Origin: Acetobacter sp. AN02
Lineage (GTDB): Bacteria > Pseudomonadota > Alphaproteobacteria > Acetobacterales > Acetobacteraceae
Length of the DNA: 40,324 nucleotides
Reading direction: 5' to 3'
Assembly (NCBI RefSeq): GCF_029759835.1
Contig: NZ_JAJJND010000005.1
Coordinates: forward strand, 1 to 40,324
Below the pieces are notes generated by a model. The model searched no databases and was not told the origin of the DNA. It saw only the letters and a program-made list of their open reading frames with translations. Numbering within the stretch: the stretch's first letter is position 1; each line of letters starts with the position of its first letter. Below are positions 8,041 through 28,032 of this stretch, piece after piece. Position numbers and translations under genes: made by a program.

Positions 8041-8044
8041 GCCT

Positions 8045-9184: not shown

Positions 9185-9567
9185 ATACTGTAATCCTCGC
9201 CGCTGCTCTAAAAGAGCCCCCATTACATTTCGTGCAGTAAAAATGGGCGTGGACTTAAAGATATTCAAGTCGGATAATAATTTTTATGTATTTTTTTATG
9301 CACGTAATTAATGGCATAATTTAATGGAAAAATTATACATAATATAAGTATATAATTTTTCAAAACTGTGAAATTGGATATTAATATTATGTTGGCAGTC
9401 GCCTGTTTGGGGGGGCAGAATGTCCGCTTCTGGAAAGCAAGTCTTGATTACCTGATGTCGCTTATGAGGCGATTGCAGCCTGTCCGGTTAGGGGGGGGGG
9501 AGCCGGACTGTCCGCATTTAAGCTCACAGACTTGTGCAGCGGACACCCCCGTCAATTCGGAAACGGG
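9185..9567. promoter_or_regulatory. AT-rich intergenic region, probable promoter of the MBL operon
   Basis: From 9270 to 9370 the sequence is almost pure A/T. Read on the minus strand it holds TATAAT (9337-9332) and TTGAAA (9363-9358), but the spacing of 20 bp is long, so only the region, not exact boxes, can be supported. From 9380 to 9560 the base composition changes abruptly, with G7 and G9 runs and TGTCCG words and no ORF worth calling. This second half resembles other non-coding debris in the window (near 580-640, 1890-1920 and 10120-10210). Confidence 0.4.
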
Positions 9568-10415: not shown

Positions 10416-10431
10416 TCGAAAGAGATTGTTT

Positions 10432-11295
10432 GTGCGCTGGGGTGTCGAGCAGAGGCTTGAGTTTATTGAGTTCCGCCTCTTCTGGGAGGGCTCCATCAAC
10501 CGTGCCGATATTGTCGAATTTTTCAGCGTATCAGTTCCTCAGGCGTCAAAGGATCTGACGCTCTACCAGGAGCGAGCGCCGGGCAATATGGAGTATGATA
10601 CGCGCGGTAAACGCTATGTCGCTGTTGAAAAATTCGTCCTGCGTTTTCTCGACCCTGATCCTTATGTCTACCTCCGACAGCTTCGCTCTGTGGCCGAAGA
10701 TGCTACCCCCTTCCATGATTCCTGGATCGCGGCGTTTCCAGGCGCCGACGTGGCCCTAACGCCTAAACGGGACATCGACATCGAGGTCTTCCGCAAGATT
10801 CTCAACGCAGTCCGCAAAGATATGTCCGTCGAGGTTTTCTACCAGTCGATGAACAAGATGCGTCCTGACCCGATCTGGCGCAGGATCACACCGCACGCCT
10901 TTGGCTATGATGGTTTTCGCTGGCATGTCCGGGCCTATTGCCACCTTGAGCATAAGTTCAAAGACTTCCTTCTGCCGCGTATTCTGAAGGTCGGCGCGAC
11001 CGGCACGCCTGGCGCGACCGGTGAGCAGGACTGGTTTTGGAACAATTATTTCGATGTGATCATCGGCCCGCATCCTGCTCTGACTGAAAGTCAGAAAAAG
11101 GTTGTTGCCAAGGATTACGGCTTGGATCAGGGCAATGGCGTCATGTCGGTTCGCTACGCGATGCTGTTCTACGTTTTGAAGAGACTTGGCCTACTCGGTG
11201 ATGCAGCCAAGCAGAATGCTTACACACAGCATATCGTGACATTAAATCGCAAGGAAACAGAGGCCGCTTTAGACAAGGCGGGTTTTCAACTGTGA
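10432..11295 (+). CDS. WYL-domain transcriptional regulator (BrxR/CapW-like)
   Basis: This protein of about 287 residues has an N-terminal winged helix (EFRLFWEGSINRADIVEFF, then VSVPQASKDLTLYQE) and a central WYL domain with the block RRITPHAFGYDGFRWHVRAYC, about residues 145-170. The C-terminal part (about 210-287) is of the WCX type. Such regulators repress defence operons and are thought to release DNA when a nucleic-acid or nucleotide ligand binds the WYL domain. GTG 10432 is preferred as start, with AAAGAGA five to six bases upstream; a TTG two codons earlier is the alternative. The gene precedes the helicase gene by 25 bp on the same strand and follows a strong inverted repeat, so autoregulation of the whole operon is likely. 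Confidence 0.85.
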   Translation: MRWGVEQRLEFIEFRLFWEGSINRADIVEFFSVSVPQASKDLTLYQERAPGNMEYDTRGKRYVAVEKFVLRFLDPDPYVYLRQLRSVAEDATPFHDSWIAAFPGADVALTPKRDIDIEVFRKILNAVRKDMSVEVFYQSMNKMRPDPIWRRITPHAFGYDGFRWHVRAYCHLEHKFKDFLLPRILKVGATGTPGATGEQDWFWNNYFDVIIGPHPALTESQKKVVAKDYGLDQGNGVMSVRYAMLFYVLKRLGLLGDAAKQNAYTQHIVTLNRKETEAALDKAGFQL

Positions 11296-14300: not shown

Positions 14301-14821
14301 TGGACCAGCTTGAGCGGGAGCGATTCATCTCATCGCAACCGCCGCGGGTACGGGGCGGTATGGTCGTTATCCCGCGTGGGCTGCTTGAAGCACGGCAGGC
14401 ACCAAGCATACCGGACCATTTCGCGGTAGATCCAGCTGCGCGTCGGGCAATTGAGCTTGCGGCAATGGACGCAGTCATGGCGGCCGAACGATCGTTGGGC
14501 AACGAACCGGCTGACGTCTCCGCCCAGAAGATCGGTTATGACATCGCTTCCCACGATCCGAAATCAGGCCACCTGCGTTTCATCGAGGTCAAGGGTCGGA
14601 TTGACGGGGCAGATTCCCTGATGGTCACACGGCAAGAGATCATCACCTCCCTAAACGAACCAGAAAAATTTATTCTAGCGATTGTTTCCGTGACGAATGG
14701 CATTGCGCAAGCCCCGCGCTATGTGCGTGGTCCACTCGTCGAACGAGAGCCGTCATTTCTCGAAACCGCTATTCAGTTTGACTTGAAACGCCTGTTGGAA
14801 CGTGCGGGAAGCCCAATATGA
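11321..14821 (+). CDS. SNF2-family helicase with C-terminal DUF3883 domain (DrmD-like)
   Basis: This 1166-residue superfamily 2 translocase has Walker A in ADDPGAGKT (about residues 129-137), the DEAH box in ICDEAHRMS (about 231), motif III in LLMSATPHNG (about 267), and the second RecA domain with VNYDLPWNPNKIEQRFGRIHRIGQ ending near residue 605. After a long helical region comes a DUF3883 domain (about 1070-1130) with FIEVKGR, the E-x-K of a PD-(D/E)XK-like fold. This domain order matches helicases of DISARM class 1 (DrmD) and related restriction-like systems. They are thought to translocate on or recognise invading DNA together with the methylase. The gene overlaps the next by four bases (ATGA at 14818). 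The ATG at 11321 has only a weak ribosome site (GGAAATGTCGGCGG). Confidence 0.9.
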   Translation: MAARLEDVKNGASVRGIASSQAVQILSVDWIGDQAINVVYRDHHGTVADAVLYRDDEHRLEIEKNGRPWSFDADGALLRLVTEANRIKLAYYFDPYLAIHTSLIDPLPHQISAVYGEMLPRQPLRFLLADDPGAGKTIMAGLLMKELIARSDLERCLIVAPGSLVEQWQDELGQKFNLEFDILSREMIENARSGNPFSDRDRLIVRLDMLARNEELQDKLMSAPEWDLIICDEAHRMSATYFGGEVKYTRRYQVGQKLGQVCRHLLLMSATPHNGKEEDFQLFMALLDSDRFEGRFRDGVHYADTEDMMRRLTKEELLKFDGRPLFPERRARTVKYQLSEGEAALYTAVTEYVRTEMNRVQRFAEGDGKKRNNIGFALQILQRRLASSPAAIYQSLKRRRERLENELGEARLAAKYRRSGTEVAINSDMLRNIEEYGQEEIDELEDLISTGATTAETVEQLALEVETLKGLETMALGVLRSGVDTKWSQLNRILDDDLMMDAAGNRRKLIIFTEPKDTLHYLLDKVRARLGTSEAVDVIHGGVSREERRKVVERFMQDKNMLVLIANDAAGEGVNLQRGHLMVNYDLPWNPNKIEQRFGRIHRIGQTEVCHLWNLVAADTREGEVYARLLEKLEAAREALGGRVYDVLGELFEGVALKDLLFEAIQYGEQEDVKARLFQQVDGAVDQGHLLELLRRRALTNDAMPEAKVEELRLEMERAEALRLQPHHIQSFFVEAFQNLGGRIKRREDGRWEITHVPVRIRERDRQIGTGAPLQTQYERICFEKDKINQQPVAAFVCPGHPLLEAVISLIREQYEQIMRQGAILVDDTDAGDALSAIFLLEHTVQDGRVTSAGKPHVISQRLQFVAIDKAGDTVNAGIAPHLNLRPAQPEEVACVRDLLDESWLTTDLEKAAIRFATVELAQRHVAEVKARRLPEIEKVEQEVRARLKKEINYWDSRAFELKEEERAGKKTRVNWQNAQRRAEELADRQKRRMDQLERERFISSQPPRVRGGMVVIPRGLLEARQAPSIPDHFAVDPAARRAIELAAMDAVMAAERSLGNEPADVSAQKIGYDIASHDPKSGHLRFIEVKGRIDGADSLMVTRQEIITSLNEPEKFILAIVSVTNGIAQAPRYVRGPLVEREPSFLETAIQFDLKRLLERAGSPI

Positions 14822-15366
14822 CGACCATTTGGAATACCCACTCGGAAGGGTTGTTCTGGCATGTCTGTGAAGAGCGTTTAGGCTATGACATCCAGAAAAT
14901 CTCTGAATCACAAGCTCCTAGTCCTGATTACGAAATCCACGCAGACGGAATACGTATTGTTGCCGAAGTGAAGGAGTTATCGGACAATGCAAAGAGCTGT
15001 GAAATCCAAAACGCTCTCGAAGAGCCAGGTCATATACATATTGATACCGTTGATTTCGAGTTTACTGGCGCTCTGGATCGTGTTCTCCGCAAGCAAGAGC
15101 GGCAACTTGCGGCTGAGTCTCGGAGTGGGACCCCAACGCTTGGCGTAATCTATGTGGGTAGGTTTCTTGGTCCAACAGAATACCAGATCCGCCATCAGTT
15201 ACGCCGGGGAGCTGTGAGTATTCCCTCAGCTATTAGTGCAATTATGCTTATGAAGCATTCTGGAATAATGGCTGAAGAAACTCCCACGCCACTTTATCTG
15301 ATATTTTGTAACCCGAATGCCACCGTAATTTGGCCAGTCGACATTTTCCCCGAGATATTCGCATGA
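14818..15366 (+). CDS. Small PD-(D/E)XK-type protein in the DISARM-like operon
   Basis: This 182-residue protein of no named family has a nuclease-like signature near the N-terminus: SPDYEI, then after about a dozen residues IVAEVKEL, which is PD-x(n)-E-x-K as in restriction-endonuclease folds. Both ends overlap their neighbours by ATGA (14818 with the helicase, 15363 with the methyltransferase), so it is translated as part of the operon. By eye it is clearly richer in A/T than the helicase gene before it. A strand-cutting or DNA-end-sensing subunit is the simplest inference. If the fold call is wrong it is simply an unrecognised operon member. The remainder of the protein shows no membrane segment. 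Confidence 0.6.
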   Translation: MTTIWNTHSEGLFWHVCEERLGYDIQKISESQAPSPDYEIHADGIRIVAEVKELSDNAKSCEIQNALEEPGHIHIDTVDFEFTGALDRVLRKQERQLAAESRSGTPTLGVIYVGRFLGPTEYQIRHQLRRGAVSIPSAISAIMLMKHSGIMAEETPTPLYLIFCNPNATVIWPVDIFPEIFA

Positions 15367-18107
15367 CACACCCCTATAAAAAGAAACTCATCGAAGTCGC
15401 CATCCCGCTGGAAGCGATCAATGCAGCGTCGGTACGAGAGAAGTCGATCCGGCATGGGCATCCGTCCACGCTGCATCTGTGGTGGGCGCGGCGGCCGTTA
15501 GCGGCTTGCCGGGCGGTGTTGTTCGCCCAGCTTGTCGATGATCCGTCGAGCGACCTTGAAAAGTTCCCGACGCTTGAGGCACAGGAGACCGAACGCAAGC
15601 GGTTGTTCGCCGTCATTGAGGACTTGGTGAAGTGGGAGAACTCAACCAACGAGGAAGTGCTGGAGCGCGCCCGTGCCGAAATCCGCAAGAGCTGCGGCGG
15701 CGAAATGCCGCCGGTCTATGATCCGTTCTCGGGCGGCGGGTCGATCCCGTTGGAGGCACAGCGCCTCGGTCTACCCGCTTATGGGTCTGACCTGAACCCG
15801 GTCGCGGTGATGATTGGTAAGGCGATGATCGAGATACCGCCGAAATTCAAAGACATGAAGCCGATCCATCCCGGCGCCAAAGACAGGCAGTTTTATCGCA
15901 ACGCCGAGGGCCTCGCCGAAGATGTCAAATACTATGGCGAATGGATGCGCGAGACGGCCTGGAAGCGCATCGGTCATCTCTACCCGCAGGTCGATCTGCC
16001 GAAGGAGATTGGCGGTGGCAGAGGAACCGTTGTTGCATGGATTTGGGCACGCACTGTTCCAAGTCCGGACCCGGCCTTTGCAGGTGTTGAAGTTCCGCTG
16101 GTTCGGTCGTTTCAACTGAGCGACAGCGCTTGGGTTGAGCCGGTTGTGAGCGGCAAACAATACACTTTTCAAGTGCGGACTGGTGGTTTACCCGACGCTA
16201 CCAAGCTTGCGGGCACTGTCAGCAGGCAGGGCGGCCGGTGTCTTGTCTCAAACACTGCAATGCCGCTCAATTATATCAGAGAAATGGCCCGAAAGAGTGG
16301 CTTGGGTCAGCGGCTCATGGCGGTCGTGGTGGAAGGCACGCGAGGACGTGTGTTCATTTCGCCAACAGCTGATATGGAAAAAACGGCGTTCCTTGAGAAG
16401 CCAAAATGGCTGCCAGAGGAGTTAGTTACGACACCTTCTCATGAGGTTGATCGATTGCCGATGTATGGCATGACAACCTGGGGAGATGCCTTTACGGATC
16501 GTCAAGCAATCGCTCTGACCACATTTGTGGATGTTGCGAAGGAGCTGAAAGAAAAAATTCTTGAAGACTTGATTACAGGCAACACCATCGATGCGATTGA
16601 TCCGGAGAATTACGCTAATGCCGTTCGCGTTTATCTTGCTTGCGCAATTGATAGATGTGCAGACGCCTGGAGTACGATTGCTACTTGGGCAACGAGTGGC
16701 TTCATAAGGTTTACTTTCGCCCGCCAAGCAATCGCAATGACATGGGATTTTGCCGAATGCAATGTGTTCAGTTCATCTACAGGGAATTTTGGAGGAGCTG
16801 TTGATTGGGTGGTCAAAGCCCTATCCGAACTTCCTGCAATCGGCACCGGCAGCGTGAATCAAGCGGATGCCCGTTTTACAGTATTACCATCTGCAAGCAG
16901 CCTTTCGACCGACCCGCCATACTATGACAACATCGGATATGCGGATCTATCCGACTATTTTTATGTATGGTTGAAGAAGTCGGTCGGTGACATTTTTCCG
17001 GAAATATTTTCGACTATAGCGGTTCCTAAATCGGATGAGTTGGTCGCAATGCCGCATCGGCATAAAAACCGCCGAGCCGCGGAAGATTATTTTCTAAATG
17101 GAATGTCGGAGGCATTTTCAAATATCGTTACTCAAGTAAACAGCGATCTTCCTGCTACTATTTATTATGCATTCAAACAAAGTGAGGTATCTGAAGAGGG
17201 CCTGACGTCATCGGGTTGGGCAACCTTCCTTGAAGCCGTAATTTTTTCGGGTCTCTCCGTTGTAGGAACCTGGCCTGTCCGCACTGAACGCGCGGGGCGA
17301 ACGATCAGTGTGGGCGCTAACGCACTTGCGACCTCGGTGGTTCTCGTATGTCGCAAAAAGGCTTCCACGGCAGAGGTCATCACGCGGGCAGAATTCATCC
17401 GTGCCCTTAAGCGAGAACTGCCGCCTGCCATTGCCGAACTTCAGGCTGCCAACATTGCCCCGGCCGACATGCCGCAATCAGCCATCGGGCCCGGTATGGG
17501 CGTCTTTTCGCGCTACAAGGCGGTACTGGAATCCGATGACAGTCCTATGAGCGTGAAGACTGCGCTTCAACTCATCAATAGAGAACTCGACGAATATCTT
17601 GGCGGCATTCAGGGAGAATTCGATCCCGACACGCGCTTTGCGATTACCTGGTTCGAGCAAAACGGAAACGGCAAAGGGGACTATGGCGTGGCCGACAACC
17701 TTGCCCGTGCCCGTGGCATCTCGGTCGAAAGCATCAAGCACGCAGGGATTGTCGAAAGCGCAGCCGGCAAGGTTCGTATCCTGACACGCGACGAACTCGA
17801 TGAAAATTGGGACCCGGAAAGGGATGACCACTTGACGGTGTGGGAGTGCCTCCAGCACCTCGTCAAGTCACATGAGAAGGATGGCATTTCGCATGATACG
17901 GCCGTGTTACTGAAGAAGATCGGGAGCCAGGCCGAGGCTGTGAAGGATCTGGCCTATTGTCTTTATGACATCAGCGCCAACAAGCGAAAGGATGCGAAGG
18001 AGGCGACCGCCTATAACGCTCTGATCGCCGACTGGGCCGAACTGACGAATGCGGCTGCGGCTATCCACGATACCAGCGGCGATCGTCAGATCCGGCTGGA
18101 CATTTGA
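15363..18107 (+). CDS. DUF1156 adenine-specific DNA methyltransferase (DrmMI-like)
   Basis: This 914-residue protein opens with a DUF1156 block (KKKLIEVAIPLEAINAASVREKSIRHGHPSTLHLWWARRPLAA). The SAM-binding motif I is DPFSGGGSIPLEA (about residue 118) and the catalytic motif IV is DPPYYDN (about 516), i.e. DPPY of N6-adenine methylases. It belongs to the COG1743 type used as the methyltransferase of class 1 DISARM and of other multi-gene defence systems. There it is thought to mark host DNA as self. The ATG at 15363 overlaps the stop of the previous gene (ATGA) and fits the family N-terminus. An earlier in-frame ATG at 15330 would add eleven residues. The part from about 16030 to 17270 is visibly poorer in G/C than the ends, suggesting a mosaic gene. 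Confidence 0.92.
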   Translation: MTHPYKKKLIEVAIPLEAINAASVREKSIRHGHPSTLHLWWARRPLAACRAVLFAQLVDDPSSDLEKFPTLEAQETERKRLFAVIEDLVKWENSTNEEVLERARAEIRKSCGGEMPPVYDPFSGGGSIPLEAQRLGLPAYGSDLNPVAVMIGKAMIEIPPKFKDMKPIHPGAKDRQFYRNAEGLAEDVKYYGEWMRETAWKRIGHLYPQVDLPKEIGGGRGTVVAWIWARTVPSPDPAFAGVEVPLVRSFQLSDSAWVEPVVSGKQYTFQVRTGGLPDATKLAGTVSRQGGRCLVSNTAMPLNYIREMARKSGLGQRLMAVVVEGTRGRVFISPTADMEKTAFLEKPKWLPEELVTTPSHEVDRLPMYGMTTWGDAFTDRQAIALTTFVDVAKELKEKILEDLITGNTIDAIDPENYANAVRVYLACAIDRCADAWSTIATWATSGFIRFTFARQAIAMTWDFAECNVFSSSTGNFGGAVDWVVKALSELPAIGTGSVNQADARFTVLPSASSLSTDPPYYDNIGYADLSDYFYVWLKKSVGDIFPEIFSTIAVPKSDELVAMPHRHKNRRAAEDYFLNGMSEAFSNIVTQVNSDLPATIYYAFKQSEVSEEGLTSSGWATFLEAVIFSGLSVVGTWPVRTERAGRTISVGANALATSVVLVCRKKASTAEVITRAEFIRALKRELPPAIAELQAANIAPADMPQSAIGPGMGVFSRYKAVLESDDSPMSVKTALQLINRELDEYLGGIQGEFDPDTRFAITWFEQNGNGKGDYGVADNLARARGISVESIKHAGIVESAAGKVRILTRDELDENWDPERDDHLTVWECLQHLVKSHEKDGISHDTAVLLKKIGSQAEAVKDLAYCLYDISANKRKDAKEATAYNALIADWAELTNAAAAIHDTSGDRQIRLDI

Positions 18108-18120
18108 GGGGGAACGGAAC

Positions 18121-21100
18121 GTGGCAAAAAGCACGCGTCAATCTGTATTTGAAGGGATGGAGTTGCTCCCGGCAGCATTAATCCCCTTCGTCGAAAAGAG
18201 GTTAGAAACCTCCCTCAAAGGATACTGGCAGGTCCAGGTTCTTGAAAAACTGCCGAACCTGCGCCCCAGCAGCAATGGTGAGATTGGTTGGGATCAGGCC
18301 GCGCTGTTCAATGCGATGGACCGGTTTTGGAGCGAAGCATTCAAGGCGGTCCTTGGCCGCGCCGAACGCTCGTTGGTCAACGAGCTGGGTGATGTCCGCA
18401 ACAAGCTCTCGCATAACGAGACCTTCACGTACGATGATGCCGAACGTGCGCTCGATTCCATGCGCCGCCTGATGGAGGCGATCAGCGCTGGGGAGGCGGC
18501 GGAGCAACTCGGTAAGATGCGTGACACGATCCTGCGCACAAAGTTCACCGAGCTTCAGCGCAATGAGGAACGACGGAAAACCCAGCGCCTCGACATTTCG
18601 GTTGAGACTGTGGCAGGGCTTTTGCCATGGCGTGAGGTGGTCGAGCCACATCAGGATGTCGCTACTGGCGAGTTCCAGCAAGCCGAGTTCGCCGCCGACC
18701 TTGCCAAAGTATATTCAGGCAGCGCACCGGCTGAGTATCGCGATCCGAAGCAGTTTTTCAGCCGGACCTATCTGACCGAAGGTCTTAGCGCGCTTCTAAT
18801 TGGAGCGGCTCGGCGGCTCTCAGGTACCGGCGGCGATCCGGTCGTCGAACTGCAGACGAATTTCGGCGGCGGTAAGACGCACTCAATGCTAGCGCTCTAC
18901 CACATGGCCGGCCCGATCCCGGCCCATGATTTGTCTGGGCTCGACCAGTTGCTGGACAAGCAGGGGTTGAGCGTTCCGAAAGACATCAAACGCGCTGTGT
19001 TAGTCGGCACATCGCGCGGGCCGCAGGATGTTCTCAATGCCGAAGGTGGTCGTAAGATCCGTACAACCTGGGGTGAACTGGCATGGCAGCTTGGCGGGCC
19101 GGACGGTTTCGACATGGTCGCCGAGAACGATGCGAGCGGTATCGCGCCGGGATCGAACCTGCTTGAGGCGCTATTCAAAACATATGCACCTTGCCTGATC
19201 CTGATTGACGAATGGGTCGCCTATCTGCGCCAAATTTACAAAGTTGACGGATTGCCGGCTGGCTCGTTCGACGCCAACCTTTCATTTGTCCAGTCGCTGA
19301 CCGAGGCAGTCAAAGCCAGCCCCGGTACGCTGCTGGTTGCTTCGTTGCCAGCCTCGCAGATTGAGGTGGGTGGTGAAGGCGGTCAGGAAGCACTGGCGCG
19401 CCTCAAGCAAACCTTTAGTCGAGTGGAATCCTCATGGCGGCCGGCAAGTCAGGAAGAGAGCTACGAGATCGTCCGGCGGCGGCTGTTTAAGGAAATACCT
19501 GGCGATAAGTTTCATCACCGCGACAACACATTGAAGCAATTTTCCAAACTATATCGCGAAAATACCAACGATTTCCCGCAAGGCTGTGCGGATGAGGACT
19601 ACCGGCGTAAGCTTATAAAAGCCTATCCCATCCATCCCGAATTGTTTGATCAACTCTATACGAGTTGGGGATCTCTGGAAAAATTCCAGCGCACACGCGG
19701 TGTCCTGCGTCTGATGGCGCAAACCATTCACGAGCTTTGGATGAGCAACGATCCTTCGGTGATGATCATGCCCGGCAGCGTTACGGTTAGTTCGCCGCGC
19801 GTGGAACCGGAGTTGCTGCACTATCTTGATGTGACCTGGCAGTCGATCATCGCTGGCGATGTTGATGGCACAGCATCCACACCATACAAGATTGACCAGT
19901 CGGCACCAAACCTAAACCGTTATTCGGCGACAAGGCGCGTTGCGCGCGCGATCTTCATGGGAACGGCGCCGACGCACCAGCAACAAAATACCGGCCTTGA
20001 TGACAAGCAGATCAATTTGGGGGTCGTGCAGCCAGGCGAGCGTCCGGCGATCTTCGGTGATGCGCTGAGACGACTGACCAACCAGGCCAAGTTTATGCAC
20101 GCCGATCTCGGACGCTATTGGTATTCTATGTCTGCCAGCCTCAATCGTATCGCAGCGGACAAAGCGGCGCAGATCGAAACAGCGCTCGTCGACGTGACCA
20201 TCGATGCGCAACTTGGCAAATATGTGAACGGGCTTACCGATCGGGGGCATTTCGATGCCGTGCAGGTCGCGCCTGCCTCATCGTCAGAAGTTCCTGATGA
20301 ATCGGGCGGAGTGCGTGCCGTCGTGCTGGGCGTCAAGTATCCGCATAATGGACGTGACGGTTCCGAAGCACTCGTCGAGGCAAAGGACATACTTACACAG
20401 CGCGGCAGCATGCCTCGCGTTTATCGCAACATGCTGGTATTCATCGCTGCGGAAAATCGTCAGCTTGAGCATTTGAAAGATGCCGTACGCGCCTTCCTTG
20501 CCTGGGGCGAGATTGTCCGCGATACAGAGCGGCTAAACCTCACTCAAAGCGACAGTGCACTCGCCAAAACAAAGCTTGCCGAAGCCAACGAGACAATGAA
20601 GACGCGTCTAAAAGAAGCGTGGTGCTATTTACACTATCCTGCTCAGGAGAGTGCACAGGCAGATTGGGAGTGGGTATCCGGAAAAATTCCAGCGCAAGAC
20701 GGATTGCTGACTCGCGCGAGCAAAAAGCTGGTGGCTGAAGAGGGCCTGCTCGTCGAGCTGGGACCATCGCGTCTTGATCGCGATCTCCAGAAATATATAT
20801 GGAACGGAAAGCCGCACCTTTCACTAAAGGATCTGCGGGAATACATTAATCGCTACATCTACCTGCCGCGGCTGAAGAACCAAGAGGTTCTGATTAAAGC
20901 CGTGCAAGCATCCATCAGTGGTATGTTACCCGGCCCATTCGCTTATGCTGAGCGATGGGATGAGAAGACGGATACATATGTGGGCCTGGCGATCGAGCGG
21001 GCTAGTAATGCTATTGTGGTCATTGATGGTGATAGCGTCATCGTGAATCCCGACATTGCCGAAGCACACAGACCGACTTCTGCGCAACCTGAATCGACTA

Positions 21101-21417
21101 CTGATGGCCCAAAAAAGCCCAGAGGAACACCACTGGAGGCAGAAGGTGAACCAGAAGGAACGCAGGGCTCACCTACTTCAGAGAAAAAGCCAACCCGATT
21201 CATAGGGGCAGTCATGATCTCGCCCGAACGACCGGCTAGGGACATCCATCAGGTTGTCGAAGCGATTGTCGAGCAACTCACGACACTTCCAGATAGTCAG
21301 GTGAAGCTTAGGTTTGAAATCGAAGCTGAGGTGCCGGGCGGCCTCGATCGTGCCAAGGTGAGGACGCTAGTCGAAAACGCCAATACGCTTGGCTTCGTGG
21401 AAAAATCGATCGAATGA
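18121..21417 (+). CDS. DUF499 ATPase with N-terminal Swt1-like HEPN domain
   Basis: This protein is about 1098 residues long. Residues about 15-130 look like a Swt1-type HEPN domain, with the RNase-type motif RNKLSH (R93-x4-H98). The DUF499 P-loop ATPase follows, with Walker A TNFGGGKTHS (K252, T253) and Walker B LILIDEW (D363, E364). The C-terminal tail has a Pro/Glu/Gly-rich linker (about 1000-1030) and a final small domain. DUF499 and DUF1156 proteins are regularly encoded together in anti-phage loci. HEPN domains often cut RNA, so this subunit could carry an RNase effector activity in addition to DNA-dependent ATPase work. GTG 18121 is the start, with GAGGGGGAACGGA just upstream; the gene lies 13 bp after the methyltransferase stop and ends the operon. 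Confidence 0.88.
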   Translation: MAKSTRQSVFEGMELLPAALIPFVEKRLETSLKGYWQVQVLEKLPNLRPSSNGEIGWDQAALFNAMDRFWSEAFKAVLGRAERSLVNELGDVRNKLSHNETFTYDDAERALDSMRRLMEAISAGEAAEQLGKMRDTILRTKFTELQRNEERRKTQRLDISVETVAGLLPWREVVEPHQDVATGEFQQAEFAADLAKVYSGSAPAEYRDPKQFFSRTYLTEGLSALLIGAARRLSGTGGDPVVELQTNFGGGKTHSMLALYHMAGPIPAHDLSGLDQLLDKQGLSVPKDIKRAVLVGTSRGPQDVLNAEGGRKIRTTWGELAWQLGGPDGFDMVAENDASGIAPGSNLLEALFKTYAPCLILIDEWVAYLRQIYKVDGLPAGSFDANLSFVQSLTEAVKASPGTLLVASLPASQIEVGGEGGQEALARLKQTFSRVESSWRPASQEESYEIVRRRLFKEIPGDKFHHRDNTLKQFSKLYRENTNDFPQGCADEDYRRKLIKAYPIHPELFDQLYTSWGSLEKFQRTRGVLRLMAQTIHELWMSNDPSVMIMPGSVTVSSPRVEPELLHYLDVTWQSIIAGDVDGTASTPYKIDQSAPNLNRYSATRRVARAIFMGTAPTHQQQNTGLDDKQINLGVVQPGERPAIFGDALRRLTNQAKFMHADLGRYWYSMSASLNRIAADKAAQIETALVDVTIDAQLGKYVNGLTDRGHFDAVQVAPASSSEVPDESGGVRAVVLGVKYPHNGRDGSEALVEAKDILTQRGSMPRVYRNMLVFIAAENRQLEHLKDAVRAFLAWGEIVRDTERLNLTQSDSALAKTKLAEANETMKTRLKEAWCYLHYPAQESAQADWEWVSGKIPAQDGLLTRASKKLVAEEGLLVELGPSRLDRDLQKYIWNGKPHLSLKDLREYINRYIYLPRLKNQEVLIKAVQASISGMLPGPFAYAERWDEKTDTYVGLAIERASNAIVVIDGDSVIVNPDIAEAHRPTSAQPESTTDGPKKPRGTPLEAEGEPEGTQGSPTSEKKPTRFIGAVMISPERPARDIHQVVEAIVEQLTTLPDSQVKLRFEIEAEVPGGLDRAKVRTLVENANTLGFVEKSIE

Positions 21418-21612
21418 TAGCACGGTCGTTCCGTCAGTCATCAACCAGAAAAAATGAGCTTTTATCAATCAAAGAGGGACCAGAATATCAAGTTTGGAAG
21501 CAGTCATCATTGCAAACGAAGGATGGTTCGGCATCTTCGTCGTCCGGTGAGAGGGGGGGCTGGTGCAACTAGCGCTTTTCGTAAAACTGTGTTTTGACGG
21601 TTAAATGAGGTG

Positions 21613-21636
21613 GTGACACCGTCATGACGGTGTCAC
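21613..21636. repeat. Perfect 24-bp palindrome centred on CATG
   Basis: The sequence from 21613 to 21636 equals its own reverse complement (arms GTGACACCGT and ACGGTGTCAC around CATG). It is the strongest of several TGACA/TGTCA inverted repeats here. Another runs from CATGACACCA (21694-21703) across a 7-base loop to TGGTGTCATG (21711-21720). These look like dyad binding sites for a dimeric regulator or iteron-binding protein. Confidence 0.7.
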
Positions 21637-21876
21637 GTGGGTGTCATTTCTATCGCACCTTTGGTGCTCCCTGAGAGGCCGGGATGACGGCGTCATGACA
21701 CCACCTCAAATGGTGTCATGGGGCCAGTGACACTGTCAGTACCTGTCATCTGTGGCGTCATGACAGGCGTCACGCAAAGCGTCATTGACGTCATGAATCC
21801 TAGAAAACGTCAGAAAACAGCCATTTTTCCTTTTTCTGGCGTGTTTTGGTTTTTGGGCGTGTGAAGGCACGCTACC

Positions 21877-21915
21877 GCAAATTCATACGCATCCTCTGGA
21901 TGCATATGAATTTGC
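21877..21915. repeat. 18-bp inverted repeat with 3-base loop, followed by T-tract
   Basis: GCAAATTCATACGCATCC (21877-21894) and its complement (21898-21915) match at 17 of 18 positions around the loop TCT. A run of eight T follows at 21920-21927, so on the plus strand it could act as an intrinsic terminator. However, no gene ends just upstream (the DUF499 stop is 460 bp away). In front of a relaxase gene it could equally be the oriT hairpin. Confidence 0.6.
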
Positions 21916-22134
21916 TGGATTTTTTTTGAATTTTTTCTTGTTCTATCGCCGAACAGGTTCGGCTCCCTTTGCTTCTGGCTCATGACACTTCAGGAATGGC
22001 GTCATTGACCCTGCCTGCGCTGTGCTGACGTCATTTTTCCGATTTGCGGGGCATGCGGACGGCGTTGCTCAAAAATGTATCTTTTCATCTGGGAGAGTGC
22101 GTTTACGCTTCTGAGAGGAAGGGAATCACGGCGT

Positions 22135-24177
22135 ATGGCGTACTACCCGAAATCTGAGTTGAGTCTCATACGAGCAGCGAGCGCGGCAGTGGTCACGCGT
22201 ATCATCGAACGCGCCGACCGTTTGGCGAGACAAAAGGCGAATGCCCAAAGGGGTGACTTTCAGGCCGTCCTGCAGACCCCAACGAAATCAGTCCTTCGTA
22301 GCATTGTTAAGAAGGCGCTGTGCACAACCAGTCGCCAGCTTCGCAATGTGCCCTCACTCCGCCTTTCGGCTCCGGACACCGGAGGGATACCATTCCATCT
22401 CGGTCTGACCTGGATCTCAAAGGCAAGTGTTAGTTCGTCGGGCACCAAGGGAAAAGCTGGTAACTCAAGAAAGGCGCATCGGCGCGCTACGACGACGGAA
22501 GGGGCGCACCAGCTTTATGTCGAGCGTGAAGGGGTGGTCGCGGAGCCGGGGCCATTGCCAGTGTCTCGTGCGCAGGACAGTTCCTATGGATCGGCGCCAA
22601 TGGCGCAACGGTATATTGAAAATCCGATTAAGACGATGTCGGATGAGGGGCTGGCATCGTTCGGGACCATCGGCAGCACGATGGCCGAACGGCAATCCTT
22701 CTGGGAACAGGTTCACGCCACCGAAGCGAAAAATGGCCGCACCCAACACCGGCTCGTTCTGGAGTTGCCACATGAGGCCAATGACGCCATTCGAGCCGAA
22801 ATTGTGAGGCGGTTTACCCGGGACGCTTTCGAGCAAAATGGAATTCCCTACTGGGCTGCTATTCATCGGCCTACGGGCAAGAATGATGATCGGAACTATC
22901 ATGCTCACATCGTTTTCACCGACCGCCCGGCCCGAAAAATGACCAATCCCGAGACGGGAGAACAGGTCTGGGATTTTACGATCACGACCCGTGAGCGGGA
23001 TTCCTCGCGGCATTACGTCACAAAGCGCCCTTTCAAGCAGAACAAGGATCGCACGATGAGTGGCCGGAAGTATCCCGAGCGACTGCGGGAATTATATGCG
23101 CAGACGGCCAATATCGTCCTGTCCTCCCATGGCGTTCCGGTGCGCTACGATCCCAGATCTTATAAAGATATGGGGTTGGATATTGAGCCCATGCCGCATA
23201 CACGTCGGATCATTGCGGACAAGCAGGCGGCGAAGGGCTATGTGGTCCGTGACGAGCACGCAACCCGACAGCGTATCAATCGTGAAAGTGAACAGACGGC
23301 CAATCAGCGCTTTATGGCCTGGAAAGCGTTGGTAAAAAGCCAACGCAGAGTTGGCTTTCGGCGGACAGGGCCGTTAGGGCCACACGTCTTCCACAAAGAC
23401 ATTTTTTCGGGCCGGATCAAACCGGAGGATATTCTCAAAAGTGCCGGCCTGGCGACATCACGTCAGCTTTTTGGAACAGTACAGCAGCGGATGACAGCTA
23501 ATGTTGCTGATCAAGCAGCTCTGAAAATGCTTGCGCTTTTTCTGGAGGCGACGCGGGAGCCCGAAAATGAGGCACCAGATGTCCGGGAGTTCGCCCGTCG
23601 CCTGCTCCGTCAGGCTGCGCAGGAGGAAGTCGCTGCAATTGGTGGGATTGCGCATAAACGAAATGCCGTATTCGCGCGCAAAATAACCGGCACGGTGTGG
23701 GTAGAGCGAACAGCAGCGGAAAACTGGTCTTTGTTCGATGAAGCAGACAGATCATGGAACGAACTGCCGCCGACGTTTGTAACCGAATGCCCACAACAGC
23801 AAGAGGTTCTCCAGAAGATGGAAACGTCACTGCCGCAGCCGGGAGCCGGGAAAGAGCTTCCAGAGACCCCTTCATCGAAGGTCACGCCACGCGTGAAAGC
23901 TGATTCATCCGTGCCCCTAAGTATTGTTGACCGTCTCCGTGAGAGAATGAATGAGCTGACCGATATGGTCATTGAAGAGAGTGGCGGCGACCTGGAGATC
24001 ATGCACAAAATAATAGCGGCTCTGGCGGAACAGACGCGCGTTGCACAGCGTGCATTCCGGAACGCCACAGAAGCGAAGGAACAGGACGGTGAGGAGGAGA
24101 AACAATTAAAAAAGAGGAAGAAGAAAGAACAGGTCCAATCGCGTAAAAAAGACCGGAGCGGGGGATTTGAACGATAG
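22135..24177 (+). CDS. MobA/MobL-family relaxase
   Basis: This protein is about 680 residues long. The metal-binding block is NDDRNYHAHIVFTDRP (H256 and H258), preceded by RLVLELPHEANDAIRAEIVRRF, the usual MobA/MobL (MOBQ-type) order. An upstream block, AHRRATTTEGAHQLYVERE, may hold the catalytic Tyr. The C-terminus is strongly charged and lysine-rich (EEEKQLKKRKKKEQ). The relaxase nicks one strand at oriT and pilots it through a helper conjugation channel. ATG 22135 is chosen since AGGAAGGGA lies about ten bases upstream; an in-frame ATG at 22075 has no ribosome site. No primase or helicase domain was recognised, so it looks like a mobilization rather than a self-transfer relaxase. No mobC-like accessory gene was recognised beside it. 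Confidence 0.85.
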   Translation: MAYYPKSELSLIRAASAAVVTRIIERADRLARQKANAQRGDFQAVLQTPTKSVLRSIVKKALCTTSRQLRNVPSLRLSAPDTGGIPFHLGLTWISKASVSSSGTKGKAGNSRKAHRRATTTEGAHQLYVEREGVVAEPGPLPVSRAQDSSYGSAPMAQRYIENPIKTMSDEGLASFGTIGSTMAERQSFWEQVHATEAKNGRTQHRLVLELPHEANDAIRAEIVRRFTRDAFEQNGIPYWAAIHRPTGKNDDRNYHAHIVFTDRPARKMTNPETGEQVWDFTITTRERDSSRHYVTKRPFKQNKDRTMSGRKYPERLRELYAQTANIVLSSHGVPVRYDPRSYKDMGLDIEPMPHTRRIIADKQAAKGYVVRDEHATRQRINRESEQTANQRFMAWKALVKSQRRVGFRRTGPLGPHVFHKDIFSGRIKPEDILKSAGLATSRQLFGTVQQRMTANVADQAALKMLALFLEATREPENEAPDVREFARRLLRQAAQEEVAAIGGIAHKRNAVFARKITGTVWVERTAAENWSLFDEADRSWNELPPTFVTECPQQQEVLQKMETSLPQPGAGKELPETPSSKVTPRVKADSSVPLSIVDRLRERMNELTDMVIEESGGDLEIMHKIIAALAEQTRVAQRAFRNATEAKEQDGEEEKQLKKRKKKEQVQSRKKDRSGGFER

Positions 24178-25072
24178 GCGTAGATTCATTCCTTCCCAGT
24201 AAAAGGATGAGCGAATGCTCTGACATGCATCCTCACTGATTCTGGGCGCGACCCGACCAGCACCATCTGACGCGAATTATCTAAAGGTCCAGAAGTTTAG
24301 TCGACTTTGACGACTGTTATATCCCCTTTTCAGGGGAACCGACAAAAACCCGTTCCCTGACATCAGGATACAGGTTTTTGTTATTTTGGATTGTAGTAGC
24401 TTCCGATTATCCACACTTTCGTATGTCTGTCTGACCTGCGGCGACTGGTTTCAGAGCCTCTGCCACAACAGCCTGATCATGTCGCCCTCGAATAAAGCGT
24501 CGTCCAGCCCGGACCATTCCGGCATGTGTCGTCGCGTCGTCATGGAAGCTGACAATCAGAGCTGCGAGATCTTCGCCGCTCTGTCCGGCGAGGCTTGCAA
24601 GAGCAGTGGGCAGCTGCATCCCCTCGGTCGCAACTGGTCTCATCACGCACGGTACGCGAGCGGCCAGACTGTCTAGGACCTTGAGGGTGCCAGTGTAAGA
24701 AGCCGTGTGATCGCCGCCCTGATGTCTGAAGCCCAGCGGACGGACGTTGCAAAGAACACCCAGGTCGCGGCCGCGCGGAAGCGGGCACGCCAGCGCTCCA
24801 AAAAACAGTAACGCTTTTCAGGTCGGCAGGATCAGTTCGAATCTATAACGGATTAAGTTGGTGTTTTTCAGAAACGAGTCTTGCGAGCTCTGGTGCGGTT
24901 GACGGTGCAGTATTTCTTGGTCTGTTTTTATTGTGTGATCTGATCCTGATTTTTCCCGGGCTTTGAGGTCTCACACCCTAAATTCCCCAAAGGATTTTGT
25001 TCTTATCCGATCTGGTATCGGTTTTTTGCGTGTGGGTTCCTCGTCCCGCAATACTTGTAAACGAGAAAATCA
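24178..25072. other. Gene-poor region downstream of the relaxase
   Basis: Apart from the glycosyltransferase fragment (separate entry) I see no supported gene in these 895 bases. A short inverted pair, CCCCTTTTCAGGGG (near 24325-24338), may help end relaxase transcription. A short plus-strand ORF at about 24722-24811 would encode a 29-residue Arg/Lys-rich peptide (MSEAQRTDVAKNTQ, then basic), but it lies antisense to the fragment and I would not call it. Confidence 0.4.
24407..24715 (-). pseudogene. C-terminal fragment of a GT4-type glycosyltransferase
   Basis: On the minus strand an open frame contains TLKVLDSLAARVPCVMRPVATEGM, then LASLAGQSGEDLAALIVSFHDD, then a helix ending at the stop codon. 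This is the pattern of the C-terminal Rossmann domain of group 1 glycosyltransferases (KVLeALAxGvPvVxTpxaaEGl, then dAalaaai..L..D). The donor-binding Glu of the EG motif is present, but the N-terminal domain and most of the C-terminal domain are missing. The frame reaches a stop near 24821 without a start that would give a complete enzyme. It is therefore a leftover of a gene cut by rearrangement, perhaps from an exopolysaccharide locus. Confidence 0.5.
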
Positions 25073-25291
25073 ATGTCTGATCATACAACTACTTCTTCTG
25101 TAGTGGAGGCGGATCTTATGCAGCTCGTGGCCCTGCACCGGCTGCTTGACTTTGCCATAAGCCAATCGCTCGAAGGCAATACGGACGACCGTATCCTGGA
25201 GGGCGTCGTCATTCTGACGCGCATGATCGGTCGCAAAGTCCGGTGCGTGACCAGCAAAATCCTGGATGGCGAAGGCTCAGGCTGCGATTAA
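25073..25291 (+). CDS. Small hypothetical protein
   Basis: This 72-residue acidic, largely helical protein (for example LMQLVALHRLLDFAISQSLEG, then ILEGVVILTRMIGRKVRCV) has no family I recognise. The start ATG at 25073 has only a weak GAGAAAA upstream. It lies 93 bp before the next gene on the same strand and the two may be cotranscribed. The helix pattern suggests a small oligomeric or regulatory protein, but nothing in it shows a function. Confidence 0.5.
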   Translation: MSDHTTTSSVVEADLMQLVALHRLLDFAISQSLEGNTDDRILEGVVILTRMIGRKVRCVTSKILDGEGSGCD

Positions 25292-25384
25292 CGCTCTCCA
25301 TCCTCGCCCACATTCACACCCATTTCTTCCCTCAACAGGCGCGCTCATGTCGCGTCTGATTTCGTTTCATAAGGACAATAAACA

Positions 25385-26005
25385 ATGTTTCTCTCTTCAG
25401 GCGATGCCACGCCGTCCCGTTTTCATCCCACCGAGGCCGATCTCATCACCTATCGGGACCTGGCCCGTGCCCTCGGCGCCCCACCGAGCGAGGTCATCTG
25501 CCGGTATCTCGGCCCGGCCGGCCAACATCTGGTGTTCATCGGTGAGTCCGGTCAGCGGGACTGGGCGCGCGTCGATACCCAGGCAAGGGCTCGCTGGCCA
25601 GATCTGCCGTCCACGGGAACCACAGCGTCGGATGGCAAGATACTGGAATCCCTGCCTGAACGTATCGTGTATCAGATACTGGATTCTCTCAAACATGAGG
25701 ATATGGAGATCGATCTTCACCAGCCGATCATGCCTGATATGGGGCCCGAGAAAGCAGATCTGACGCTGCGACGTCGGGATGCCGCCTGCTTCATCGAGGT
25801 GATCGGCTGCTGCGGTGTGAACCGCATCACCCGCAACGATCATGAGCGCCGGGGGCTGGAGCGCTTCGAGCGGCGCGAAGCCTTCTACCGCCGTGTTGGC
25901 ATCACCCCAGTCTGCATCTTTCTCGACCTGCTGGCGCGTCCAGAAGACCTGAAGGCACTGTGCCAGTCTCTGGTGGACCGGATCGCTGACGACGGGAGTG
26001 ACTGA
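25385..26005 (+). CDS. Hypothetical protein, possible degenerate restriction-endonuclease-like fold
   Basis: This 206-residue protein is not a family I can name. The C-terminal half has KADLTLRRRDAACFIEVIG, then a helix rich in Arg/Glu and the strand VGITPVCIFLD. A D followed about ten residues later by IEV and further strands is reminiscent of PD-(D/E)XK folds, but the Lys expected after the Glu is absent (EVIG), so activity is doubtful. The start ATG at 25385 has AAGGA nine bases upstream, a good site. It belongs to the mobilization module between relaxase and integrase. A 7-bp stem (GCGTGGG and CCCACGC, 26039-26070) lies after its stop. Confidence 0.6.
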   Translation: MFLSSGDATPSRFHPTEADLITYRDLARALGAPPSEVICRYLGPAGQHLVFIGESGQRDWARVDTQARARWPDLPSTGTTASDGKILESLPERIVYQILDSLKHEDMEIDLHQPIMPDMGPEKADLTLRRRDAACFIEVIGCCGVNRITRNDHERRGLERFERREAFYRRVGITPVCIFLDLLARPEDLKALCQSLVDRIADDGSD

Positions 26006-26353: not shown

Positions 26354-26695
26354 ATGTCAGCGGCTAAAAGAAAAACTGTCGCAATAGAGCCTCGTGGATC
26401 GTTACGTTACGCTGCGGCGGCGTTGCATCTTGGAATCGCTGAAGGAACGTTGCGGAACCAGCATGAGGCGTTGGGAATTCGGTCGTTGAAAATTGGCCGG
26501 GTCCGGTGTTTTCGTGTTGAGGATCTGGATGATTTCCTTGAGCGGAAGCTCCTTGAGACCGAGAGAAAGCAGCTTCGGAAAAAGCGGCGGGGGCGAGGGG
26601 AGAGTTTGCTCTTCAGTCCGGATTTCAGTTTCTGGATTGTGATCGCAGCACTATTGCTTGTAGCTCTGATCAGGCTGTCATTCGTGACAGCCTGA
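26354..26695 (+). CDS. HTH (excisionase/MerR-like) protein with C-terminal membrane segment
   Basis: This 113-residue protein has a helix-turn-helix of the HTH_17/excisionase type at residues about 15-65 (YAAAALHLGIAEGTLRNQHEALG, then KIGRVRCFRVEDLDDFL). A highly basic stretch follows (KQLRKKRRGRGE), then a hydrophobic segment at about 91-109 (FWIVIAALLLVALIRLSFV) that reads as one transmembrane helix. GGAG seven bases before ATG 26354 supports the start. Converging with the integrase gene and only 8 bp from its end, it is a candidate recombination directionality factor or repressor of the element. The membrane anchor is odd for an excisionase. Confidence 0.65.
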   Translation: MSAAKRKTVAIEPRGSLRYAAAALHLGIAEGTLRNQHEALGIRSLKIGRVRCFRVEDLDDFLERKLLETERKQLRKKRRGRGESLLFSPDFSFWIVIAALLLVALIRLSFVTA

Positions 26696-26703
26696 CGGAA
26701 ACG

Positions 26704-27813
26704 CTATTCTTTATCGACAAAGTTACGCTTTTCATATGCGATGGCTTTGGCGGCTAGATCTTCCGTGTGGGGTTGATAGTACCTGTCAAGGGACTTGATA
26801 TCCTTGTGTCCCGTCACGCGGCGAAGTTCCAGGGGGTTCGTGTAAATCCTTGCGAGACGGCTCGTCGCTTCGTGGCGAAGGTCATGAAACGTGAGATCCC
26901 TGAGACCTGCTTTCTTCGTCATCCGCCCGAACCGGACGGAGAAAGCGTCCTTGCTGCCAATGTCAAAGACGAGATCGCCCGGTCGGGCGGATTTGCGTTG
27001 TGCCTGAAGGGTCCGCAGCAGGCGGGCCGCACCGGGTGTCAGGGGACGGATTTCCGGGCCACGTTCGATGGCGCGATGCATGGTTTTCGTTTTTCCCAAG
27101 GACAAGGCGTGACGATCAAAGTCAATGTCACGCCAGCGGAGTGTCAGGGCTTCCTCCCGTCGGGTGCCTTGTTCAATGGCGAATTGGACGAATACGACAT
27201 CATCGGGCCAGGGCGATGTTGCCATGGCTTCCAGAAGGCGGTTGTATTCATCGCCGATGAGACGACGGTTGCGCTTCTTGTCTGCGCCAGCGGGACGTTT
27301 GACCGCCGTTGCGGCAGCCGGGTTTTTTGAAAAGGGCAGGTCCCACTCTGCGATCGCATGCTGGCAGATCGCGGCCAGCAGGTTGAGCCGTTTGACGACC
27401 GTTGCGGCGCTATATTTCTCAGCCAGCCGATCCCGGAAGCCGCGAACTGCCGTCGGGGTCAGATCGACCAGCGCAAGCTGTGCGATCTCGTCCTGGAGAA
27501 TGGAGGGGATGTGACCTTTGCGATCATTCTCCCGGGTCTGCATCTCCTCGCGCACGTAACGGTCGACCAGTTCGCGGACGGTCTGGCGTTCCAGTGGGCG
27601 CGTGTCCTCAAACTGTCCGAGTTCCAGTTTGGCGGACGTCGTGTCCAGCCAGCGTCGGGCCAGTTTGGCCGAGGTGAAGGTTTGATGGATCCGCTCTCCG
27701 CCAGCGATACGCTTGCGGGCTCGATACTGGCCCTTACCGCGATACTCCACGCCTGCGGGAAGAGCGCGGCCTGTTGCGGGATCGATTTTGGCAGAAGTGA
27801 TTCGGTCTTTCAT
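26704..27813 (-). CDS. Tyrosine recombinase (integrase) of the island
   Basis: This protein is about 369 residues long. The N-terminal part (about 20-75) is an arm-type DNA-binding region, a SAM-like core-binding domain follows (about 80-165), then the catalytic domain. Its Arg is in EQGTRREEAL, the Lys in LGKTKT, the HxxR in HDLRHEATS, the second His in TGHKD, and the nucleophile Tyr in LDRYYQP. All six expected positions look intact. ATG 27813 is chosen because GAGG lies six bases upstream; an upstream in-frame start at 27849 has no such site. The gene ends 8 bp from the converging HTH gene and lies next to the 3' end of tRNA-Glu, the classical arrangement for an integrase acting at a tRNA attB. 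Confidence 0.93.
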   Translation of the reverse strand: MKDRITSAKIDPATGRALPAGVEYRGKGQYRARKRIAGGERIHQTFTSAKLARRWLDTTSAKLELGQFEDTRPLERQTVRELVDRYVREEMQTRENDRKGHIPSILQDEIAQLALVDLTPTAVRGFRDRLAEKYSAATVVKRLNLLAAICQHAIAEWDLPFSKNPAAATAVKRPAGADKKRNRRLIGDEYNRLLEAMATSPWPDDVVFVQFAIEQGTRREEALTLRWRDIDFDRHALSLGKTKTMHRAIERGPEIRPLTPGAARLLRTLQAQRKSARPGDLVFDIGSKDAFSVRFGRMTKKAGLRDLTFHDLRHEATSRLARIYTNPLELRRVTGHKDIKSLDRYYQPHTEDLAAKAIAYEKRNFVDKE

Positions 27814-27825
27814 GGTGAGCCTCGC

Positions 27826-27908
27826 CTGGGCCCAGCATAGCCTTTTCATGGGCCCATTGGGACCATGTGCTTATCGTCTTTTTTGGCGATGGGCCCAAGG
27901 CGGGCCCA
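27826..27908. repeat. Cluster of four GGGCCC palindromes upstream of the integrase
   Basis: GGGCCC occurs at 27828-27833, 27850-27855, 27891-27896 and 27902-27907. Two copies are extended to TGGGCCCA (27849-27856 and 27890-27897) and one to CTGGGCCCAG (27826-27835). All lie between the integrase start and the tRNA, where arm-type integrase sites or excisionase/repressor sites would be. They could therefore control integrase expression or help build the recombination complex. Confidence 0.55.
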
Positions 27909-27956: not shown

Positions 27957-28032
27957 TGGCGTCCCGTACGGGATTCGAACCCGTGTTGCCGCCGTGAAAG
28001 GGCGGTGTCCTAGGCCTCTAGACGAACGGGAC
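27957..28032 (-). tRNA. tRNA-Glu (anticodon TTC), island integration site
   Basis: On the minus strand the sequence begins GTCCCGTTCGTCTAGAGG (28032 downwards), has the anticodon loop CTTTCAC with anticodon TTC, the T-arm ACGGGTTCGAATCCCGT, the acceptor partner GGGAC, discriminator G (27960) and an encoded CCA (27959-27957). The acceptor stem pairs fully. The 3' end faces the integrase gene, so the gene was kept intact by the element that integrated at its 3' end. Confidence 0.95.

Follow-up and report, generated by a model that had tools for sequence, protein, structure and literature searches.

A conserved TGAC/GTCA array adjoins a candidate oriT-like strand-exchange site in putative integrative islands of Acetobacter

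Several described systems come close to the locus analysed here. In F-like plasmids the TraM protein binds several sbm sites beside nic as a multimer, with its gene adjacent in F, and site-specific recombination between copies of oriT by relaxases is known. MOBQ origins of transfer (RSF1010/IncQ type) place a hairpin and then the nic stretch on one strand. According to excerpts of PMC8136818, relaxase-less elements of the pWBG749 family carry oriT mimics together with specificity sites for the RHH accessory protein SmpO and can thereby be mobilized in trans. Integrated elements that carry an oriT, with or without a relaxase gene, are described in excerpts of PMC11389934 as iOriT or IME hitchers.

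We analysed a stretch of 40,324 nucleotides from Acetobacter sp. AN02 (contig NZ_JAJJND010000005.1, positions 1 to 40,324), referred to here as the window, which contains a dense array of TGAC/GTCA tetramers. Our preferred reading, to which we give slightly less than an even chance, is that a site to the right of this array (site B) is an oriT-like strand-exchange site, that the array on its leading side serves an accessory protein, and that both belong to integrative, probably mobilizable islands. The features on which the argument draws are as follows.

21595–21812, no strand: main TGAC/GTCA array (module A), with 20 tetramers; homology to relatives starts at about 21605
21613–21636, no strand: perfect 24-bp palindrome GTGACACCGTCATGACGGTGTCAC, with four half-sites spaced 7, 4 and 7
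21648–21667, minus: first TTCTATCGC copy, overlapping the hairpin GCACCTTTGGTGC; the minus strand reads hairpin, then GATAGAA
21866–21876, minus: 11-bp core of site B, GGCACGCTACC (minus strand GGTAGCGTGCC), the proposed nic or strand-exchange site; flanks change here between loci
21877–21915, minus: hairpin of site B, 39 bases with 18-nt arms, covarying
21920–21927, plus: T-run after the hairpin, terminator-like in the main group
21941–21963, minus: second TTCTATCGC box, overlapping the hairpin GCCGAACAGGTTCGGC
21983–22033, no strand: minor cluster (5 TGAC/GTCA tetramers) to the right of the hairpin
22075–24177, plus: MobA/MobL-domain protein, relaxase-like, with HAHI present; absent at this place in array-bearing relatives
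25073–25291, plus: conserved 72-aa open reading frame (ORF); in relatives, located between site B and the gene for the 206-aa protein
25385–26005, plus: 206-aa protein with a C-terminal part that is nuclease-like (PD-(D/E)XK-type) in a structural model; the family often lies right of B
26354–26695, plus: HTH_17/excisionase-like protein
26704–27849, minus: tyrosine integrase of the island
27957–28032, minus: tRNA-Glu, the likely integration target of the island

The sequence-only reading of this region had reported about 24 TGAC/GTCA tetramers in 440 bases, six to seven times the chance rate, and a perfect 24-bp palindrome; both claims hold up. We count 25 tetramers in the 439 bases of 21595–22033, which is 6.4-fold above the window mean (3.9 per 439 bases) and 4.4-fold above dinucleotide-preserving shuffles of the same stretch (n = 5,000; mean 5.7, s.d. 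2.1, maximum 14). It is the densest stretch of the window, the next separate best holding 14. The tetramers are unevenly spread, with 20 of the 25 in the main array, 5 in the minor cluster and the hairpin of site B between them. The 300 bp left of the site B core hold 20 tetramers, compared with a mean of 2.7 in 4,563 overlapping 300-bp control windows from the examined loci, taken outside the surroundings of B, at least 9 in 30 of them and at least 14 in none. The TTCTATCGC box with its overlapping hairpin occurs twice in the window; at 21941–21963 the hairpin varies among loci and the box is kept in many. An Rfam search returned nothing at gathering score except tRNA, and the sub-threshold match with the best E-value (BTnc005, 25.1 bits, gathering score 174.8) was taken as chance.

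Homologues of the array, 75–95% identical over the matched part, occur in 14 loci besides the window (the 11 loci L065–L075 plus L187, L188 and L249), four of which hold a partial array only (95–110 bp in L066–L068 and 40 bp in L075). The array is conserved, and conserved as sites. Across nine homologues, the alignment columns occupied by tetramers in the window are 91% identical among the other eight, compared with 72% outside them in the same span, and this difference was reached by none of 178 circular shifts of the tetramer mask with either the window or L073 as reference, and by one of 178 with L188. The tetramers also keep preferred adjacent spacings, namely 4 for GTCA followed by TGAC, 7, 8, 18 or 19 for TGAC followed by GTCA, and 11 or 12 for like-oriented pairs; the forms are GTCATGAC, TGAC-N3/4-GTCA and the same with 11 bp added. 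These spacings account for 12 of the 19 adjacent pairs in the window (2.4 expected; none of 5,000 random placements reached this number), 9 of 13 in L188 (0 of 5,000), 5 of 9 in L085a (2 of 5,000) and 7 of 9 in L085b (0 of 5,000), in a test that is partly circular because this family of loci also served to choose the spacings. In conservation and spacing, the array is thus as expected of a multi-site protein-binding region. No protein that binds TGAC was found; a conserved ORF of 72–79 aa and HTH genes are present, and nothing ties them to TGAC.

A second, unrelated left flank (family 5; L132, L133 and L144) carries 11–12 tetramers per 300 bp beside a distant type of site B. The spacing rule is not followed in the array of L132, where 1 of 10 pairs conforms and 2,998 of 5,000 random placements do as well. 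Only two array families are independent, since groups 1–3 form one distantly homologous family by BLAST. The motif TGACN{3,4}GTCATGAC is found in 38 of 49 genomes, in many cases as a singleton. Among the loci checked, arrays of at least 14 tetramers per 250 bp are all linked to B, and weaker ones (9–10) also exist away from B, so that the arrays of groups 2–4 (9–12 per 300 bp) are recognized by position and density.

The folding of the array could suggest that it acts as single-stranded DNA, for example as a leading-region promoter or a priming site. For each strand, folding is better than in any of 200 shuffles (z = −5.0 for the minus and −5.3 for the plus strand), and the array lies on the leading side of the proposed nic. 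However, folding shows no strand preference, palindromic sites fold anyway, and the preferred spacings differ by 11 bp, which points to double-stranded binding; we consider a single-stranded role very unlikely. A suggestion in the sequence-only reading was that the pattern resembles a multi-site regulator or an iteron region rather than a simple promoter, and perhaps includes a replication origin of the excised element. The regulator-like part of this description agrees with the conserved tetramers and preferred spacings. Dense repeated sites with an A/T-rich stretch nearby are also what iterons would provide, but here the sites are 4-bp half-sites in both orientations, not direct iterons, and none of the 18 window ORFs scanned gave a Rep-like Pfam match, the left end of the island lying outside the window. 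Nor is there a replication gene in the annotated stretches around the array in four plasmids of 178–252 kb. An origin of replication for the excised island is therefore highly improbable.

The sequence-only reading had also suggested that the region may include an operator for the relaxase gene, which our comparisons contradict. The gene is absent to the right of the array in all 13 of the relatives in which this side is visible (L074, the contig of which ends 92 bp past the array match, was not judged). On the left, type I restriction genes adjoin the array, as annotated in four plasmids, by a Pfam HsdM match in L069 and, in the remaining array loci, as judged by similar protein starts alone. 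Because the array recurs beside type I restriction genes without this relaxase, we reject the operator. A homologue of window positions 24964–25980 begins no more than about 140 bp after the hairpin in L069 and L072, so that the relaxase stretch is either an insertion in the window or a loss in these two loci. We also inspected the upstream regions of the two closest relatives of the relaxase, L087 and L036, which share 33% identity with the window protein over 506 residues, as the sequence-only reading had proposed. In the available upstream DNA of these distant relatives there is no dense TGAC array (17 in 1,580 bases and 7 in 536), the outcome that the sequence-only reading had named as refuting, and both have a B-like core (AAGGCACGATAACA) with a hairpin (2/2), which in L087 has 9-bp arms and lies 338 bp ahead of the gene. 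About five repeats of about 119 bp (11530–12100), on the left side of this core in L087, form a different kind of array in a similar place.

The relaxase itself is rare. A first search of genome contigs with it found no relative; at E < 1e-50 it is present in three of 195 relatives (G000, G008 and G015), and in a family-wide sample at E 1e-20 in one of 299 genomes, which is the window's own. Strong array loci occur in five genomes of the genus (G000, G008, G015, G024 and G028), among them all three relaxase genomes. This co-occurrence, in small numbers, fits with help in trans.

Site B is the steady partner of the array, 53 bp to its right, and has the general core form RRGGCACG(C/A)TACC, then the hairpin. 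A 14-base pattern for it (GGCACGMTACCKCA) matched 42 places in 17 of 49 Acetobacter genomes, compared with 8 for the reversed control; four of the 42 (L190–L193) have no hairpin, look like chance and were rejected as B sites. A longer B pattern matched 8 places in 5 genomes among 200 of the family. The hairpin covaries: across 27 aligned sites, 25 of them distinct, seven pairs changed on both sides, a number reached in 0 of 500 shuffles, with at most three when slid. One of five covariation measures, that of further pair types, was unexceptional (157 of 500 shuffles). The array lies on the left of 20 of 37 chosen B sites, 17 in left-flank family 1 and 3 in the unrelated family 5, and the other 17 sites are array-less, so that the array is dispensable for whatever B does. 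Partial B sites of about 25 bp, lacking the second hairpin arm and inverted relative to B, occur at L071:4989, L073:9527, L187:11276 and L069:16153. They lie about 1,545 bp from B in L071 and L073 and 1,553 bp in L187, and serine recombinase genes stand on the far side in L071 and L073. Viewing B and the inverted partial B as the ends of a simple transposon in L071, L073 and L187, we saw no target-site duplication by eye in L071.

A hairpin followed by a T-run, as found in most of the main group, may also indicate transcription control, in which the TGAC sites would be operators for the type I restriction operon and the hairpin would terminate or attenuate. In the restriction loci the operon indeed begins no more than about 450 bp to the left of the array and is directed away from it. 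However, the Hma operon on the left side in the window runs toward the array, as does the closest long ORF on that side in L085a, L085b and L086. The distant B group, which reads GGCACGATACCGCATTTTGGTGCGCAGGGCGCACGCAAAACGC, has no T-run in the 61 bases shown, which counts against a plain terminator, and the swapping of flanks at the core, described below, is unexpected for one. We judge transcription control to be distinctly unlikely.

The flanks of site B have been exchanged at its core. The 37 chosen B sites combine 9 left-flank with 8 right-flank families in 13 combinations, and left family 1, which has the array, is joined to five right families. This set leaves out L190–L193, sites at contig ends (L194, L196 and L197), the inverted partial sites, B-like sites in L087, L036, L130 and L131, and some copies whose contigs were already represented or not retrieved. 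Break points were compared in 13 hand-chosen pairs. Between L132 and L134 the hairpin is identical (41/41) and the right flank 94% identical, and the left flank is at baseline immediately; between L085b and L138 the left flank matches at 149 of 150 positions, the core is identical, the hairpin is 74% identical and the right flank is at baseline. Left-type and right-type breaks coincide at the 11-bp core. Units bounded by B in direct orientation are present in L085 (1,474 bp) and L137 (1,477 bp); in L086 the outer flanks are those of L085, with one B between them. As far as alignments can establish it, left and right modules have been swapped at the core of B. In the window, left family 1 is combined with right family 4 (L077, L079, L081, L083, L084 and L195): its right side matches family 4 at 33–38 of 45–48 positions directly after the hairpin, to about 21970, compared with 20–25 of 47–57 in five restriction-type loci, and is at baseline against L077 further right. 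On this short match, the copy in the window is probably a hybrid of left and right modules.

Exchange of flanks at a core is also the behaviour of an attachment or cassette-exchange site. B could be such a site for a dedicated recombinase (serine, tyrosine or based on the 206-aa protein), with the array binding an accessory protein in the manner of arm sites. The direct units of L085 and L137 would suit this explanation, as would the inverted partial B near B in L071, L073 and L187, a CcrB-like serine recombinase gene that adjoins in L071 (and in L073 and L194, as judged from similar protein starts alone), and the nuclease-like fold predicted for the 206-aa protein. Tyrosine and serine recombinase sites usually have an inverted-repeat core, however, and the core with its one-sided hairpin is unlike that. 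Moreover, tyrosine integrases are found at some B loci and serine recombinases at others, and a B-like core also stands upstream of two MobA/MobL genes. We regard a dedicated recombinase site as unlikely.

The preferred reading of B as an oriT-like site draws on its resemblance to MOBQ origins. On the minus strand site B reads hairpin-GG-TAGCGTGCCTT and so has the MOBQ layout of a hairpin then a nic stretch, here putative, on one strand. Shared with MOBQ origins are the hairpin, a nic-like stretch TA...GTGC..C.TT that follows it within 1–2 nt and, in the window, a MobA/MobL-domain gene downstream. In L041–L043, the sites next to MobQ-type genes of this genus read hairpin-A-TAAGTGCGCCCTTAAT and agree with the published MOBQ consensus (PMC3832669). 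By contrast, the consensus NWACCNNTAAGTGCGCCCTYNN given there does not fit B, in which GGTA(G/T)CGTGCC forms a separate conserved block, and a TGAC array adjoins many B copies. Around the array (21401–22200) there is no copy of the MOBQ string TAAGTGCGCCCT; the best match has 3 mismatches and lies at another place. Upstream of three more distant MobA/MobL plasmid genes B is absent, and the cores there have two mismatches and no hairpin of 9 bp. Of the sequence-only suggestion that the region may combine an oriT, an operator and a replication origin, what survives is the oriT, in the form of an oriT-like hairpin and core that adjoin the array. A MOBF-type oriT was considered and rejected: its nic stretch CTTGGTCTGTAG was found 0 times within 1 kb of the 37 B sites, also with one mismatch allowed, and once each in L145, L146 and L147, which are plasmids with MobF relaxases. 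Left of array-less B sites in L078 (3192–5521) and its relatives lies a divergent K-L-M operon with a weakly TraL/ParA-like ATPase, and relatives of this ATPase stand opposite MobF relaxases on the three Acetobacteraceae plasmids viewed. As to a XerCD/dif-type site, a 28-bp dif-like pattern gave a single two-mismatch site in 7 genomes.

The protein encoded at 22075–24177 scores well above the Pfam MobA_MobL cut-off (74.8 against 26.7) and far below that of NCBIfam MobQ (69.9 against 200 bits). The HxH metal motif is present as RNYHAHIVF and aligns with MobQ proteins. The catalytic tyrosine of motif I (AYR) does not show in the alignment, the window having AHR and the two relatives ANR and ADR at the best-matching stretch, in a part where the alignment is loose. 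With motif-I Tyr apparently replaced in all three, we describe the protein as relaxase-like. MobA/MobL-like proteins that have HAHI, lack the usual motif-I Tyr in the alignment and carry a long N-terminal extension (22075–24177; L087:8338–10842; L036:537–3041) are rare.

In the mechanism that we propose, the minus strand of site B would be the oriT, consisting of the hairpin and then a nic within or at the edge of GGTAGCGTGCC. B would be nicked by a MOBQ-like HUH relaxase, acting in cis in the window and in trans on relaxase-less islands. The array, 53 bp from B, would lead in the transferred strand and enter the recipient first, and several copies of a putative dimeric protein would bind to it and shape or license the nicking complex. 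Strand exchange between the B sites of co-resident islands, with the relaxase as the presumed agent, would swap the array together with its cargo, here defence genes. A broader version of this scheme, doubtful but possible, is that the core with its hairpin is a general join of Acetobacteraceae islands at which left modules (array plus cargo) are swapped with an integron-like outcome. The nicking enzyme could then be of HUH or nuclease type, and the array would be the handling region of the incoming module.

Compared with TraM and its sbm sites, the proposed arrangement shares several sites for a multimeric protein beside a nic (here putative), but the F motif is another one and its sites are fewer than those of the TGAC array. 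The pWBG749 family likewise has, in relaxase-less elements, copies of an oriT together with sites for an accessory protein. It differs in that SmpO has two sites per oriT (excerpts of PMC8136818), as against 9–20 half-sites per 300 bp here, and in that modules are exchanged at the core here. The excerpts of PMC11389934 on iOriT and IME hitchers mention neither Acetobacteraceae nor an exchange of cargo at the oriT core. In the titles and abstract openings of open papers, we found no description of the TGAC array, including of GTCATGAC as a string. The parts (oriT, accessory arrays and iOriT islands) are of known kinds; in the literature searched we found no account of the core, of the large TGAC array or of an exchange of cargo at this core. 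If the proposed mechanism is correct, site B is where the defence-gene islands of vinegar bacteria (Acetobacter) move and exchange cargo, relaxase-less islands being mobilized in trans by the few relaxase carriers. The islands would then also show, in nature, the shuffling of modules at an oriT, and the 11-bp core would serve as a target for searches and direct tests.

We read the region around the array as an integrative island with defence cargo. Repeats of the tRNA-Glu end longer than 15 bp, which would mark the left end of the island, were not found in the window. On the right, the 72-aa ORF and the 206-aa protein form a pair that is conserved in many Acetobacter islands. Of 48 loci with a gene of the 206-aa family, a strict scan detected an upstream B in 20, in every case on the strand of the gene; the scan missed the window, where B lies 3,519 bp upstream, and the distant group, and contig ends cut some of the upstream stretches. 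The model of the 206-aa protein is weak in its N-terminal part (mean pLDDT 62), and no PDB entry reached E ≤ 0.001 in a Foldseek search with it. In a second structure comparison, with residues 72–206, the best rows included I-Bth0305I (Z = 8.2), Vsr (6.9), TnsA (6.0) and Hjc (6.0), which we take to be PD-(D/E)XK-type nucleases. Two mitoribosomal chains were also among them, one at the top with Z = 8.7, and values of Z below 8 may reflect a common arrangement only. E92, D125 and E138 are invariant in ten diverse members of the family and would fit a PD-(D/E)XK fold, in which the usual lysine is missing here. The 206-aa protein may be an accessory nuclease at B, a lead suggested by the model.

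Left of the array lie a WYL-domain protein gene and the Hma genes, which end in the converging HmaC, and farther left the genes for an E1-E2/JAB protein and a patatin. PADLOC assigns 11321–21417 to an Hma defence system (HmaA, HmaB and HmaC), with the WYL-domain gene upstream at 10426–11295. On the minus strand at 4680–9268, the patatin, the Prok-E2/ThiF/JAB protein and a third gene form a CBASS-like or E1-E2-JAB defence cluster.
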